Shown: positions 19,872 through 55,680 of the stretch, piece by piece
How positions within the stretch are numbered: position 1 is the stretch's first letter
Layout of the letters: every line of letters begins with the position of its first letter
Source of the DNA: Chryseobacterium capnotolerans
GTDB taxonomy: Bacteria; Bacteroidota; Bacteroidia; Flavobacteriales; Weeksellaceae
Length of the DNA: 64,000 bases
Direction: 5' to 3'
Assembly (NCBI RefSeq): GCF_021278965.1
Contig: NZ_CP065589.1
Location: forward strand, 5,213,001 to 5,277,000
Notes under the pieces: model-generated
The model's input: the letters and a program-made list of their open reading frames with translations, nothing else
Told to the model about the DNA's origin: nothing
Databases searched by the model: none
Translations under genes and position numbers: made by a program

Positions 19872-19881
19872 TCCCACACTT

Positions 19882-19955
19882 TAGGGGTGTCTGTTTTTAC
19901 AGACTGAGACTTTACCCTTTGAACCTGATCTGGATCATACCAGCGTAGGGAAAAG
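19882..19955 (+). ncRNA. TPP riboswitch upstream of the thi operon
   Basis: The THI-box aptamer is easily recognised: GGGGTGTCTG..., then ACTGAGA, ACCCTTTGAACCTGATCTGG and CAGCGTAGGGAA. It binds thiamin pyrophosphate and turns down the biosynthetic operon that begins with thiS 70 nt downstream. No T-rich terminator is seen; a start-codon-sequestering hairpin follows instead. Confidence 0.95.
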
Positions 19956-19994
19956 TAGATGACTTTTGCTGTACATTCTATTGTACAATAATGG

Positions 19995-51591: not shown

Positions 51592-53079
51592 TTATTTTGA
51601 ATGATTCATCATATTTGCATCAATATTTATATTTAGTTGTGAAGCTACTTTCATGCCAAGCTCAATATTGGCACGGAAAAAGTGACATAATTGTCTGTTG
51701 ATAATCTCCTCTCTTTTAGGTCCGGTGATTCCCTTCATGCTGCCTACAATATTTTGAATTAGATTATTTCTGTCTTCAGCATTCATGGCTTTGGAATAAA
51801 GAAGCCCAGGTTGAGTATAGTGATCGCTGTCGTTATCATTTCTGTTGTAATTGGCAACATGAGCGCTATCTAATTCATATTCATAGTTTTTGTAAGAGAC
51901 ATCCGGTTGGATATCATCAAAACTATTAGGGTGGTAATTCGGCTTATCCTGATATTGGCTGGAATCGGCCATATAACCGTCTCTTTGGTAATTGTTAATG
52001 GCAAAAGGACATCTGTTTACTTCCAATTGATGTGAGTTTACTCCCACTCTGTATCGGTGGGCATCCGGGTAAGAGAATAATCTTCCCTGAAGCATTTTGT
52101 CTGGAGAAAAACTGATTCCGTTGATAAGACTGCTTGGTGAGAATGTAGATTGCTCAACATGGGCAAAATAATTGACAGGAACTTCATTAAGCTCCATTTC
52201 TCCTACTTCAATCAGTGGGAAATCATCGTGGAACCAAACTTTTGTTACATCAAAAGGGTTCCATCTGAAATCTTTTGCTTGCTCTTCGGTCATTACCTGA
52301 ATATACATGGTCCATTTCGGGAAGTCTCCATTTTCGATAGCATTGCAAAGGTCTTCCTGCGCAAAGTCCGGGTTTTCCCCTGCCATTTTTACAGCATCTT
52401 CATCGGTAAAGTTTTTCACTCCCTGTTTTGTTTTGAAGTGGAATTTTACCCATACTCTTTCATTTTGATCATTAATCATGGAGAAAGTATGAGATCCGAA
52501 GCCATGCATATGTCTGTAGCCATAAGGAGTTCCTCTGTCTGACATTAATATAAGAACCTGATGAAGTGATTCTGGGTTTAAGCTCCAGAAGTCCCACATC
52601 ATGGTAGCGCTTTTTAAATTGGTTTTTGGGAGTCTTTTTTGGGTGTGAATAAAATCCGGGAATTTTTTAGCATCCTTAATAAAGAATACTGGAGTATTAT
52701 TTCCTACAAGATCCCAGTTTCCGTCTTCAGTATAAAATTTTAAGGCAAATCCTCTAGGGTCTCTTGCCGTATCTGCACTTCCTTTTTCGCCACCCACTGT
52801 AGAAAAACGGGCAAACATTCTGCAGGAGTTTCCTACTTTTGAGAATAATTTAGCCTTGGTGTATTGGCTAATGTCATGTGTTACTGTAAAAGTTCCGTAT
52901 GCTCCGCTTCCTTTAGCATGTACAATTCTTTCAGGGATCCTTTCCCTAACGAAGTGTGCAAGATTCTCCTGAAGAACAAAATCTTGCAGCAATACCGGGC
53001 CTCTTGGTCCTACCGTCTGGGAATCCTGATGCTCAAAATAAGGTGCACCGTTGCTTAACGTTAATTTTTTAGAATCCAT
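51592..53079 (-). CDS. katA: Monofunctional heme catalase
   Basis: Degrades hydrogen peroxide. The start at 53079 (MDSKKLTLSNGAPYFEHQ) is chosen because it begins with the family's N-terminus; the upstream frame is intergenic. Catalytic His is in RIVHAKGSGAYG, Asn in WDLVGNNTPVFF, and the proximal Tyr ligand in RLFSYPDAHRYRVG. About 495 aa, a small-subunit clade catalase. It is divergent from an OxyR gene with both redox cysteines. Confidence 0.96.
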   Translation of the reverse strand: MDSKKLTLSNGAPYFEHQDSQTVGPRGPVLLQDFVLQENLAHFVRERIPERIVHAKGSGAYGTFTVTHDISQYTKAKLFSKVGNSCRMFARFSTVGGEKGSADTARDPRGFALKFYTEDGNWDLVGNNTPVFFIKDAKKFPDFIHTQKRLPKTNLKSATMMWDFWSLNPESLHQVLILMSDRGTPYGYRHMHGFGSHTFSMINDQNERVWVKFHFKTKQGVKNFTDEDAVKMAGENPDFAQEDLCNAIENGDFPKWTMYIQVMTEEQAKDFRWNPFDVTKVWFHDDFPLIEVGEMELNEVPVNYFAHVEQSTFSPSSLINGISFSPDKMLQGRLFSYPDAHRYRVGVNSHQLEVNRCPFAINNYQRDGYMADSSQYQDKPNYHPNSFDDIQPDVSYKNYEYELDSAHVANYNRNDNDSDHYTQPGLLYSKAMNAEDRNNLIQNIVGSMKGITGPKREEIINRQLCHFFRANIELGMKVASQLNINIDANMMNHSK

Positions 53080-53163
53080 ATGTTGATGATTTGAATAGTT
53101 ATTTTCGTATTTTCTAAATCGAAGTGTAAAGGTACTAATTATCAAATTTACTTGAATTTTTAA

Positions 53164-53192
53164 TTGCTAATAACAAAAACGTTATATCTTTG
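53164..53192 (+). promoter_or_regulatory. Candidate oxyR promoter
   Basis: TTG at 53164-53166, 18-bp spacer, TATCTTTG (TAnnTTTG) at 53185-53192. A minus-strand TAAATTTG at 53143-53150 may serve catalase. Confidence 0.4.
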
Positions 53193-53212
53193 TAATAGAT
53201 AATATTAATCAA

Positions 53213-54163
53213 ATGAACATTCAACAATTGGAGTATCTTATCGCGGTTGATAAGTATAAACATTTTGGTAAAGCAGCTCAGGCATGCTTCATTACCCAGC
53301 CTACCTTAAGTGCCATGATACAGAAATTTGAAGATGAATTGGATGTGAAGGTTTTCGACAGAACTACACACCCGATCCGTACCACAGATGTAGGTCTTCA
53401 GATCATCGATCAGGCGAAGGTGATTATAGAATCTGTCAATGAGTTGAAAAACAAAGCTAACCTGTTGAATAACATTTTAGGAGGAACCATTAATCTCGGA
53501 ATTATTCCTACCGTATCATCATTTATTTTACCTACTGAGATCTTCAAATTCCTTGAGGCGAATCCAAAGATTCAGATGAATGTAAAGGAAATGACTACGG
53601 ATAATATTATTAAAGCTTTAAAAGCAGGAGAACTGGATGCGGGAATTATCTCTACTCCTTATGATACTGCGGATGAGTTTTACCAGGATTTCTTATTCAA
53701 TGAGGAATTAATGATCTACAGCTCCAATACAGAAGCAAACAAAAAAAATTCTTACATTATTCCAGAAGAACTGAATGTAGAGAAGGTATGGTTGCTTGAA
53801 GAAGGAAACTGTTTGAGAAATCAGTTTGAAAATATCTGCCATCTGAAAGAAAATACTTTGAAACCTAAAAACTTAGATTTCTTGGCGTCTAATATCCAGA
53901 CTTTGGTACATATGGTAGATAAAGTAGGGGGAATCAGTATTCTTCCTGAATTAGCATTAAGCCAGCTTTCTGAAGAACAGAAGCAAAATGTGTTCAGATT
54001 CAAAAAGCCTTTCCCATACAGAGAGATCAGCATCATTTATTATAAGCCGACTTTTAAGCAAAAGATTATTGACGAATTATCGCATTCTATCAAAAATTCT
54101 TTGGAACTTAAACTGAATTATCACGAAAGTCCGAAAGAATTTGTAAGCATAAAGCCTCAATAA
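53213..54163 (+). CDS. oxyR: OxyR-type LysR regulator
   Basis: Peroxide-sensing transcription factor, 316 aa. N-terminal LysR HTH (FGKAAQACFITQPTLSAMIQKFEDELDVKVFDR, spread over 19-51) and C-terminal sensory domain. The two redox cysteines of OxyR are present in LLEEGNCLRNQ and ENICHLK, nine residues apart as in E. coli Cys199 and Cys208. Catalase is transcribed in the opposite direction, so it is the likely target. Confidence 0.94.
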   Translation: MNIQQLEYLIAVDKYKHFGKAAQACFITQPTLSAMIQKFEDELDVKVFDRTTHPIRTTDVGLQIIDQAKVIIESVNELKNKANLLNNILGGTINLGIIPTVSSFILPTEIFKFLEANPKIQMNVKEMTTDNIIKALKAGELDAGIISTPYDTADEFYQDFLFNEELMIYSSNTEANKKNSYIIPEELNVEKVWLLEEGNCLRNQFENICHLKENTLKPKNLDFLASNIQTLVHMVDKVGGISILPELALSQLSEEQKQNVFRFKKPFPYREISIIYYKPTFKQKIIDELSHSIKNSLELKLNYHESPKEFVSIKPQ

Positions 54164-54227
54164 TCAAGAGGCTTTACAGTGATATAAATCATTAATTTAA
54201 AGAAAATTATAATTAGTAAACAAAAAT

Positions 54228-54259
54228 TTTGAGTATTACGAAAATAGTGCTTAAATTTG
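54228..54259 (+). promoter_or_regulatory. Promoter of the SAM-II-like leader and metK
   Basis: TTTG at 54228-54231, 20-bp spacer, TAAATTTG at 54252-54259. The start would fall near 54264, about ten bases before the aptamer. Confidence 0.65.
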
Positions 54260-54274
54260 CTGACGTTTACGAAC

Positions 54275-54325
54275 GAGGAAAAATTTGACCTGATTGCAAC
54301 CTCTATAAAAAAATGCTAAAACAGT
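54275..54325 (+). ncRNA. SAM-II-like riboswitch upstream of metK
   Basis: The order and spacing match the SAM-II (SAM-alpha) aptamer: P1 strand GAGG (54275-54278), ATTTGACC, TTGCAA, P1 partner CCTC (54300-54303), then ATAAAAAAATGCTAAAAC. In known SAM-II RNAs, a TTTG-side strand pairs with the AAAT before the conserved GCTAAA to form the pseudoknot; ATTT and AAAT can do so here. Identified by pattern only; a covariance search would settle it. Confidence 0.7.
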
Positions 54326-54384
54326 ATTCTTTTTTCTGGGCAATTGTTATTCTTATTTTTCTTCATAGTTATTTTTTAATCTAA
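54313..54384 (+). CDS. Hydrophobic 23-residue ORF between riboswitch and metK
   Basis: ATG at 54313 begins inside the riboswitch's 3' strand (AAAUGCUAAA) and the stop is 15 nt before metK. It codes for a strongly hydrophobic peptide (MLKQYSFFWAIVILIFL in part) that could form one membrane helix. It could be a leader peptide coupled to metK, or chance. No homologue was checked. Confidence 0.35.
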   Translation: MLKQYSFFWAIVILIFLHSYFLI

Positions 54385-54399
54385 AAAACAAAGAATAAT

Positions 54400-55680
54400 A
54401 TGTCTTATTTATTTACATCTGAATCAGTTTCAGAAGGACATCCGGATAAAATTGCCGACCAAATTTCCGATGCATTAATCGATCATTTCTTAGCATACGA
54501 TAAAAATTCAAAAGTAGCATGTGAAACTCTTGTAACTACCGGACAGGTGGTATTGGCAGGAGAAGTAAAATCTGATGCTTACCTTGATGTTCAGACGATT
54601 GCCAGAGAAGTAATCAACGGAATAGGGTATACAAAAGGTGAATATATGTTCAATGGAGATTCTTGTGGAGTAATCTCTGCAATCCATGAGCAGTCTCCGG
54701 ATATCAACCAGGGTGTTGACAGAGCGGTAAATGATGAGTCTTTCGAAGCTAAAGCAAATGCTCAGGGAGCTGGTGACCAGGGGATGATGTTTGGTTATGC
54801 TACCAATGAGACGGCTAACTATATGCCTCTTGCTTTGGATCTTGCACACACAATCCTTAAAGAACTTTCTGCCATCAGAAGAGAAAATAAAGAGATTGCT
54901 TATTTACGTCCTGATGCAAAAAGCCAGGTAACGATTGAGTATTCTGATGATCACAAACCAATCAGAATTGATTCTATTGTGGTTTCTACCCAACATGATG
55001 ACTTCGGAACAGAAGAAGAAATGCTGAACAAAATCCGTGAAGATATCAAGAACATCCTTGTTCCTAGAGTTGTTGCTCAGCAGACTGAGGAGATCAAAGC
55101 TCTATTCAACGATCAGATCAAATATCACATCAATCCTACAGGTAAATTCGTAATCGGTGGTCCTCACGGAGATACAGGTCTTACAGGTAGAAAAATCATC
55201 GTTGATACTTACGGTGGTAAAGGAGCTCACGGTGGTGGTGCTTTCTCTGGAAAAGATCCTTCAAAAGTAGACAGAAGTGCTGCTTATGCAACAAGACACA
55301 TTGCTAAAAATCTTGTAGCAGCTGGTGTTGCTGATGAAGTTTTAGTACAGGTTTCTTACGCAATCGGAGTAGCTGAACCATGTGGTTTATACATTAATAC
55401 TTACGGAACGGCTAAAGTTGATCTTCACGATGGAGAAATCGCTAAAAAAGTGTCTACAATCTTTGATTTAAGACCTTACGCTATTGAGCAGAACTTAAAA
55501 TTAAGAAACCCTATTTATCAGGAAACAGCTTCTTACGGACACATGGGTAAAGAGCACTATGTAGCTGATAAAACATTCAACAAAGGTCACAAAAATGAGC
55601 TTACGTTGGAAGGTCTTGAGTTCTTTACTTGGGAAAAACTAGATAAAGTAGACGAAATTAAAGCCGCTTTTGGTATTTAA
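54400..55680 (+). CDS. metK: S-adenosylmethionine synthetase
   Basis: Makes SAM from methionine and ATP. 426 aa with [14 protein letters not shown] (ATP binding), [13 protein letters not shown] (loop), [18 protein letters not shown] (phosphate-binding loop) and the C-terminal fold. The length is somewhat above the bacterial average of about 390; the insert [22 protein letters not shown] and nearby residues fit other Bacteroidota enzymes. Its leader bears a SAM-II-like element, consistent with feedback by the product. Confidence 0.97.

Follow-up and report, generated by a model that had tools for sequence, protein, structure and literature searches.

A predicted start-codon-masking platform for the SAM-II riboswitch upstream of metK in Chryseobacterium capnotolerans

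The leader of metK in Chryseobacterium capnotolerans contains a SAM-II aptamer, followed by a linker with conserved blocks that are complementary to the aptamer and to the metK start region. Based on folding models and comparison with related leaders, we assign a probability of roughly three in four to the reading that this leader is a translational OFF switch, which would exert feedback on metK by masking its start codon. Without SAM, the 5' half of the aptamer (GAGGAAAAAUUUGACCUGAUUGC) would pair with an anti-aptamer arm in the linker (54338-54364). This pairing would dismantle the aptamer, occupy the anti-start arm, and leave the A-rich metK start, which has no SD sequence, open (ON). At high SAM, the pseudoknotted aptamer would close during transcription, before the arm could compete. 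The freed anti-start part (54338-54354) would then pair with 54391-54405 and cover the metK AUG (OFF). In this scheme the aptamer is predicted to form ahead of the arm, an order well suited to a decision made during transcription, and repression of metK by SAM is the expected sign. Start-codon covering would be a concrete, conserved, and testable answer. All positions (Table 1) refer to the window, the whole stretch of 64,000 nucleotides that was analysed (contig NZ_CP065589.1, positions 5,213,001 to 5,277,000, forward strand).

Table 1. Features of the metK leader and their positions in the window
Feature	Position	Strand	Basis
Promoter-like TTTTG (54227-54231) and TAnnTTTG (54252-54259)	54227..54259	+	Sequence
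SAM-II aptamer (RF01726)	54269..54329	+	Covariance match, 68.1 bits
P1 of aptamer, GAGG / CCUC	54275-54278 / 54300-54303	+	Covariance alignment; enforced in one fold
Aptamer core loop UUUGACCUGAUUGC, then A-rich linker	within 54269-54329	+	
Pseudoknot 3' strand GCUAAA	54315-54320	+	Covariance match
Small hairpin, AAUGCU (54312-54317) with AGUAUU (54323-54328)	54312..54328	+	Folds (SAM-free model)
23-codon ORF MLKQYSFFWAIVILIFLHSYFLI plus stop	54313..54384	+	Sequence; judged incidental
Anti-aptamer 3' arm GGGCAAUUGUUAUUCUUAUUUUUCUUC	54338..54364	+	SAM-free fold, genus consensus fold, hexamers, swap test
GCAAUUG with aptamer UGAUUGC	54340-54346 with 54291-54297	+	SAM-free model
AUUUUUCUUC with GAGGAAAAAU	54355-54364 with 54275-54284	+	SAM-free model
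Anti-start arm GGGCAAUUGUUAUUCUU	54338..54354	+	SAM-bound model fold; swap tests
metK initiation region AAGAAUAAUAUGUCU, including AUG 54400-54402	54391..54405	+	SAM-bound model pairing with anti-start arm
metK, methionine adenosyltransferase, 426 aa	54400..55680	+	TIGR01034

A scan of the window with cmscan returned a plus-strand match to RF01726 (SAM-II) at 54269-54329 (68.1 bits, E = 5.2e-11, gathering threshold 44). The match spans model positions 1 to 60 of 60 and is beyond chance. In the covariance alignment, the P1 stem and the conserved core letters are present, as are the nearly invariant P2 strands of the pseudoknot. P1 reads either GAGG/CCUC or GTGG/CCAC in the leaders printed in the linker survey, which amounts to a compensatory change. 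The gene directly 3' of the aptamer is a TIGR01034 equivalog (506 bits versus a cut-off of 309.4), which places the element in a context of SAM and methionine synthesis. From this sequence evidence, we infer that the leader binds SAM and regulates metK. An earlier, sequence-only reading had proposed a promoter followed by a SAM-II layout in this leader, and both proposals were borne out. The promoter-like TTTTG and TAnnTTTG were found, and TTTGAG plus TAnnTTTG occurred in all 19 genus loci printed, including our own; we take these TTTG/TAnnTTTG boxes upstream of metK to be the Bacteroidetes promoter consensus. The covariance check suggested by that reading was significant under RF01726, while the number it gave, RF00521, belongs to SAM_alpha and had no match in this genome at E <= 0.001. 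The absence of RF00521 is weak evidence, because none of 14 control genomes matched it either. SAM-V, presumably one of the 4227 Rfam families in the window scan, had no match there; the scan returned TPP and SAM-II only.

Using the RF01726 covariance model at E <= 0.001, we detected the aptamer in the C. capnotolerans genome itself (1/1), in 118/118 genomes of the genus, in 185/197 of the family, in 172/246 of the order, and in 22/149 of the class genomes examined. In this genome and in the relatives whose leaders were parsed, metK follows the element. The suggestion that SAM-II before a flavobacterial metK would be unusual was not supported by these counts, and the element is in print: "SAM-II long loops", with the same aptamer model and from the same phylum, is listed for Bacteroidetes (marine) in Table 1 of Weinberg et al. 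2010 (PMC2864571), and SAM-II in Bacteroidetes was reported by Barrick and Breaker 2007 (PMC2258182). Because it has been published, the aptamer itself was already known. The openly available papers searched by title and abstract yielded no description of a flavobacterial SAM-II expression platform, and the terms metK and SAM-II are absent from the main text of a Flavobacterium psychrophilum transcriptome paper (PMC9723704). The riboswitch described here appears to carry an expression platform without an earlier description. Within the family, one genus-level group (g17) had SAM-II in 0/9 genomes (G133, G157, G173, G185, G194, G202, G209, G213, and G217), compared with 185/188 of the other family genomes.

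With one aptamer and one gene shared by 253 distinct leaders, evolution of the platform becomes visible apart from that of the aptamer. For the ORF survey, leaders could be parsed at 190 of 196 loci (all except L135, L156, L162, L167, L184, and L191), and 185 of them were distinct. Leaders L041, L061, L074, L155, L171, and L187 were mis-anchored on the wrong GC[TA]AAA, and ORF counts are given with corrected anchoring. In the accessibility, duplex, swap, and motif figures, 5 of the 253 leaders were anchored 10 nt too early; L076, L155, and L189 had no recognised core in the accessibility run. The further-leader set left L298 (of 38) and 4/21 class-level loci unparsed. Flavobacterium-type metK leaders also occurred in records labelled Chitinophaga, Rokubacteria, and Klebsiella (L266, L277, and L282), contigs that were probably mis-binned.

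The linker between aptamer and gene is conserved in blocks. An alignment of 110 genus leaders revealed AGT-ATTC, GGGCAAT..TTATTCT, TTTTTCTTC, and the start region AAAGAATAATATG, and the anti-aptamer pairs of the genus consensus fold hold in 65-100% of leaders. Across linkers from 43 genera, the top-ranked hexamer was GCAATC (7.8 genera-equivalents versus 0.5 expected), with TGCAAT and CAATCA next in rank. All three are contained in the reverse complement of aptamer segment UGAUUGCA; ATGCTA in the same ranking is an artefact of the mis-anchored leaders. In other lineages the linker carries GUCAAAUC, the reverse complement of aptamer GAUUUGAC. By simple motif definitions, 83/110 genus leaders had the first kind of arm only and 27/110 had neither motif, while outside the genus 59/143 had the first kind only, 22/143 the second only, 4 both, and 58/143 neither. 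Some leaders illustrate matched changes: in L066 and L073, aptamer GAUUUGGC occurs with linker GCCAAAUC, and in the Robiginitalea leaders L244 and L246, GGAUAG..GACUG pairs with CAGUC..CUGUCC.

Complementarity comes easily in linkers that are AU-rich, and we compared it with several controls. Relative to dinucleotide-shuffled linkers, the anti-aptamer duplex had a mean Z of -2.74 in the genus (n = 110), -2.16 in the rest of the family (n = 45), -2.55 in other families (n = 27), and -2.08 in named records (n = 71). A set of 33 further, previously unused leaders gave Z = -2.29. Pairing between each aptamer and its own linker was stronger than with swapped partners (-16.17 versus -14.04 kcal/mol) in 40/40 draws across 113 groups, each named record counting as one group. 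Among the 81 leaders that contain a CAAAT stretch, Watson-Crick pairs numbered 48 versus 28.2 after permutation at column x3 (0/2000), 43 versus 33.9 at x2 (3/2000), and 50 versus 40.7 at z (6/2000); column x1 did not covary (31 versus 35.2). A single-base replacement test was mixed: at column c8 it was negative for A and C, at c7 for T, and at c6 for C. Within the genus, covariation in the free fold was absent, with 0 double changes and slid controls at 0-10 cells. Alternatively, AU-rich sequence and common ancestry might by themselves account for the complementarity, and the aptamer would act in some other way, such as through mRNA decay. The U-rich linkers, the lack of covariation within the genus, and the fact that the swap and permutation tests ignore phylogeny all lean that way. 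Yet the complementarity exceeded chance against dinucleotide shuffles and swapped partners, in new leaders, and at compensatory columns, and we regard this explanation as quite improbable.

The predicted alternative folds share the anti-aptamer arm. With no constraints, the predicted fold of the window leader (-24.3 kcal/mol) is a long hairpin between the 5' half of the aptamer and 54338-54364; with P1 enforced and no pseudoknot term, the fold is at -19.2. For the SAM-bound state, the aptamer was barred from other pairing, leaving out pseudoknot and ligand energies. In that model, the metK AUG is covered through pairing of 54338-54342 with 54401-54405 and of 54345-54354 with 54391-54400. Since their arms overlap, the anti-aptamer and anti-start helices are mutually exclusive. 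The anti-start pairs hold in 82-100% of genus leaders, and the duplex was stronger with its own partner than with swapped ones (-6.63 versus -5.66) in 100/100 draws. With 3 covarying cells for the anti-start helix versus 0-5 in slid controls, the genus pairs of both helices are conserved, not covarying. We had also considered UAUUCUUU, directly 3' of the aptamer, as the start mask, an idea that was dropped because the constrained folds chose 54338-54354.

We then scored start accessibility as how open the 15-nt stretch up to and including the metK AUG is predicted to be, with 0.05 as the threshold for a change. In the SAM-bound model, accessibility dropped by more than 0.05 in 101/110 genus leaders, compared with 38% with shuffled linkers. 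The same drop was predicted in 27/45 leaders from the rest of the family (30% shuffled), 16/27 from other families (26%), and 23/71 named records (20%), leaving 48/71 named records without such a drop. A rise of more than 0.05 was predicted in 0 genus leaders, 2 from the rest of the family, 3 from other families, and 5 named records. The modelled switching signal outside the genus is weak. Because masking is weak in the named records and their anti-aptamer signal is clear, some lineages may use another output. Translational start masking calls for exclusive helices with the aptamer and with the start region, and the pair found here comes from prediction and sequence comparison only.

A rival to start masking is termination of transcription, with SAM binding favoring a terminator. 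A transcriptional mode is described for most SAM-II riboswitches (PMC6061858; PMC2258182 for alpha- and beta-proteobacteria). However, 54150-54460 held 0 terminator-like sites (a GC-rich hairpin plus a U run), and only 1/253 leaders had one, versus about 1.8 expected from shuffling. We dropped the terminator model for the window leader, which has no site; termination appears unlikely as the output, and a transcriptional SAM-II switch here very improbable. Another idea borrows from the Sinorhizobium meliloti metA leader, where the SD of the riboswitch is needed for initiation at AUG2, 74 nt downstream, and AUG1 is unused (PMC9373788). By analogy, the A-rich AUG region of the present riboswitch would recruit ribosomes for the metK start 87 nt downstream, SAM would block this landing, and translation of the intervening ORF would be unneeded. 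Although the spacing is similar, the S. meliloti element is an SD sequence, of which none was seen here, and distant landing would leave the complementarity to both aptamer and start unexplained; we consider it improbable. Given the Sinorhizobium precedent, it is nevertheless plausible that an AUG close to the pseudoknot strand goes unused.

Such an AUG is present in the window leader. As the sequence-only reading had described, an ATG (54313-54315) overlaps the pseudoknot strand and opens an ORF of 23 codons, whose stop (TAA, 54382-54384) is separated by 15 nt from the metK ATG at 54400; those coordinates are exact. The reading had gone on to propose that translation of the ORF or passage of ribosomes through it could be coupled to metK. 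At low SAM, by this account, the small ORF would be translated, and passage or termination 15 nt upstream would couple its translation to that of metK. The start codon is common, being ATG in 101/111 distinct genus leaders and in 60/74 leaders outside the genus, and its context is A-rich. Genus ORFs are also slightly longer than those with shuffled linkers (mean 19.4 versus 17.3 codons), with a lower fraction under 10 codons (0.23 versus 0.33). Against coupling, the start is AAG in 9 and GTG in 1 of the genus leaders, and TTG in 13/74 elsewhere, all 13 from three genera of the same family (the remaining leader, L189, was mis-anchored and counted as CTG). Among the 101 genus ORFs with ATG, lengths range from 4 to 56 codons, and 11 stop after 4 codons; exactly 23 codons were found in 15 genus leaders. 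A CAAT-type linker motif lies in frame 0, 2, or 1 relative to the ATG in 52, 31, and 25 of the 111 genus leaders (missing in 3), and the distance from ATG to metK modulo 3 is 1, 0, or 2 in 40, 37, and 34. Moreover, in the models the AUG lies in a hairpin in the SAM-free state and adjoins or falls within the pseudoknot strand when SAM is bound.

The ORF hardly exceeds chance. ORFs of at least 23 codons arose in 23.0% of 2000 dinucleotide shuffles of the window linker. Its hydrophobicity was 0.70 versus 0.56 +/- 0.08 in shuffled window linkers, and hydrophobic peptides arise anyway because the linker is U-rich. The peptide had no NCBIfam match. Because its frame is lost among relatives, the ORF is not a conserved coding sequence. 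We discarded a regulatory uORF or leader-peptide attenuator on the grounds of frame drift, 4-codon truncations, and start-codon loss in relatives, and coupling through the small ORF seems very unlikely. A shifted or truncated frame in close relatives was the outcome that the sequence-only reading had itself named as refuting its proposal. With its start, length, and frame all unstable among close relatives, the 23-codon ORF looks incidental to the conserved RNA. It would be a by-product of an AUG within the conserved AAUGCUAAA strand with a U-rich linker after it. The case shows how a conserved RNA strand that happens to contain an AUG can mimic a regulatory uORF.

The same AUG would be hidden in the SAM-free model by the small hairpin at 54312-54328. 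Five pairs of this hairpin appear in the genus consensus fold, held in 91-100% of leaders, and in many relatives CUAAAA:UUUUAG replaces AAUGCU:AGUAUU. TTTTAG is enriched in linkers (14.2 versus 5.1). In a shuffle test of the pseudoknot strand against the downstream linker, the genus had no signal (mean Z = -0.03), and elsewhere it was weak (-0.67 and -0.80). Because the genus gave no signal, we treat the CUAAA:UUUAG hairpin as a side feature. The idea that it is confined to leaders with AUG was unsupported: group-weighted counts of ATG leaders were 58.0 with the hairpin and 49.3 without it, and TTG leaders counted 2.9, none with it.

The proposed start-masking switch resembles known systems in part. 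Many TPP switches act on translation, with an anti-sequestor and a sequestor. Mutually exclusive helices are common to such riboswitches and to the leader described here, where what would be sequestered is an A-rich, SD-less start together with its AUG. The SAM-II riboswitches of alpha-proteobacteria (metA/metX/metZ; RF00521) likewise have a pseudoknotted aptamer, SAM and methionine genes, and repression by SAM. The platforms described for them rely on a terminator or on an SD located in or beside the pseudoknot strand (PMC9373788, PMC6061858), whereas in the present leader the start follows GCUAAA at a distance of about 80 nt, no SD is seen, and masking is predicted to involve a separate arm. 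SAM-V, from marine alpha-proteobacteria and Bacteroidetes, shares a SAM-II-like pseudoknot and translational control but differs in that its SD is occluded by a 3' P2a helix (PMC6061858). Flavobacterium johnsoniae works without SD sequences and tunes initiation through structure at the start site (PMC6847099).

A broader reading would make this an order-wide SAM-II switch that masks the metK AUG and the A-rich sequence upstream of it in SD-less flavobacteria. The arm would have been re-placed at least twice (GCAAUC versus GAUUGC; GUCAAAUC versus GAUUUGAC), and the hairpin would silence the spurious AUG in both states. If the arm was re-placed while aptamer and gene stayed unchanged, platforms would turn over beneath a frozen aptamer. 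We offer this extended version tentatively and would sooner bet against it than for it.

Several minor observations concern other SAM-II-like sequences and the rest of the window. In L041, the aptamer core is GCUUGCAA in place of GAUUGCAA, a type of change also seen in class-level loci (e.g., L315, L316, L318, and L320-L322). Second copies of SAM-II in genus genomes were considered and set aside: the candidates were 5 sub-threshold matches (31-36 bits), 4 of which lie inside a 453-codon ORF of one kind that we take to be SRP54/ffh. One genus genome has a SAM-II-like stretch (L336, ~1228-1283; 36.2 bits, sub-threshold) 5' of a 621-codon ORF, and its core UUGCAA is not intact. Elsewhere in the window, a TPP riboswitch (RF00059) lies at 19873-19968 on the plus strand (79.9 bits). 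Directly 5' of the metK leader, at 51592-54163, an OxyR-like LysR regulator (best NCBIfam model PRK11151 OxyR, 208.3 bits, under the cut-off of 329) is divergent from a catalase-like ORF (PRK11249 HPII model, 457.3 bits, under the cut-off of 1102).
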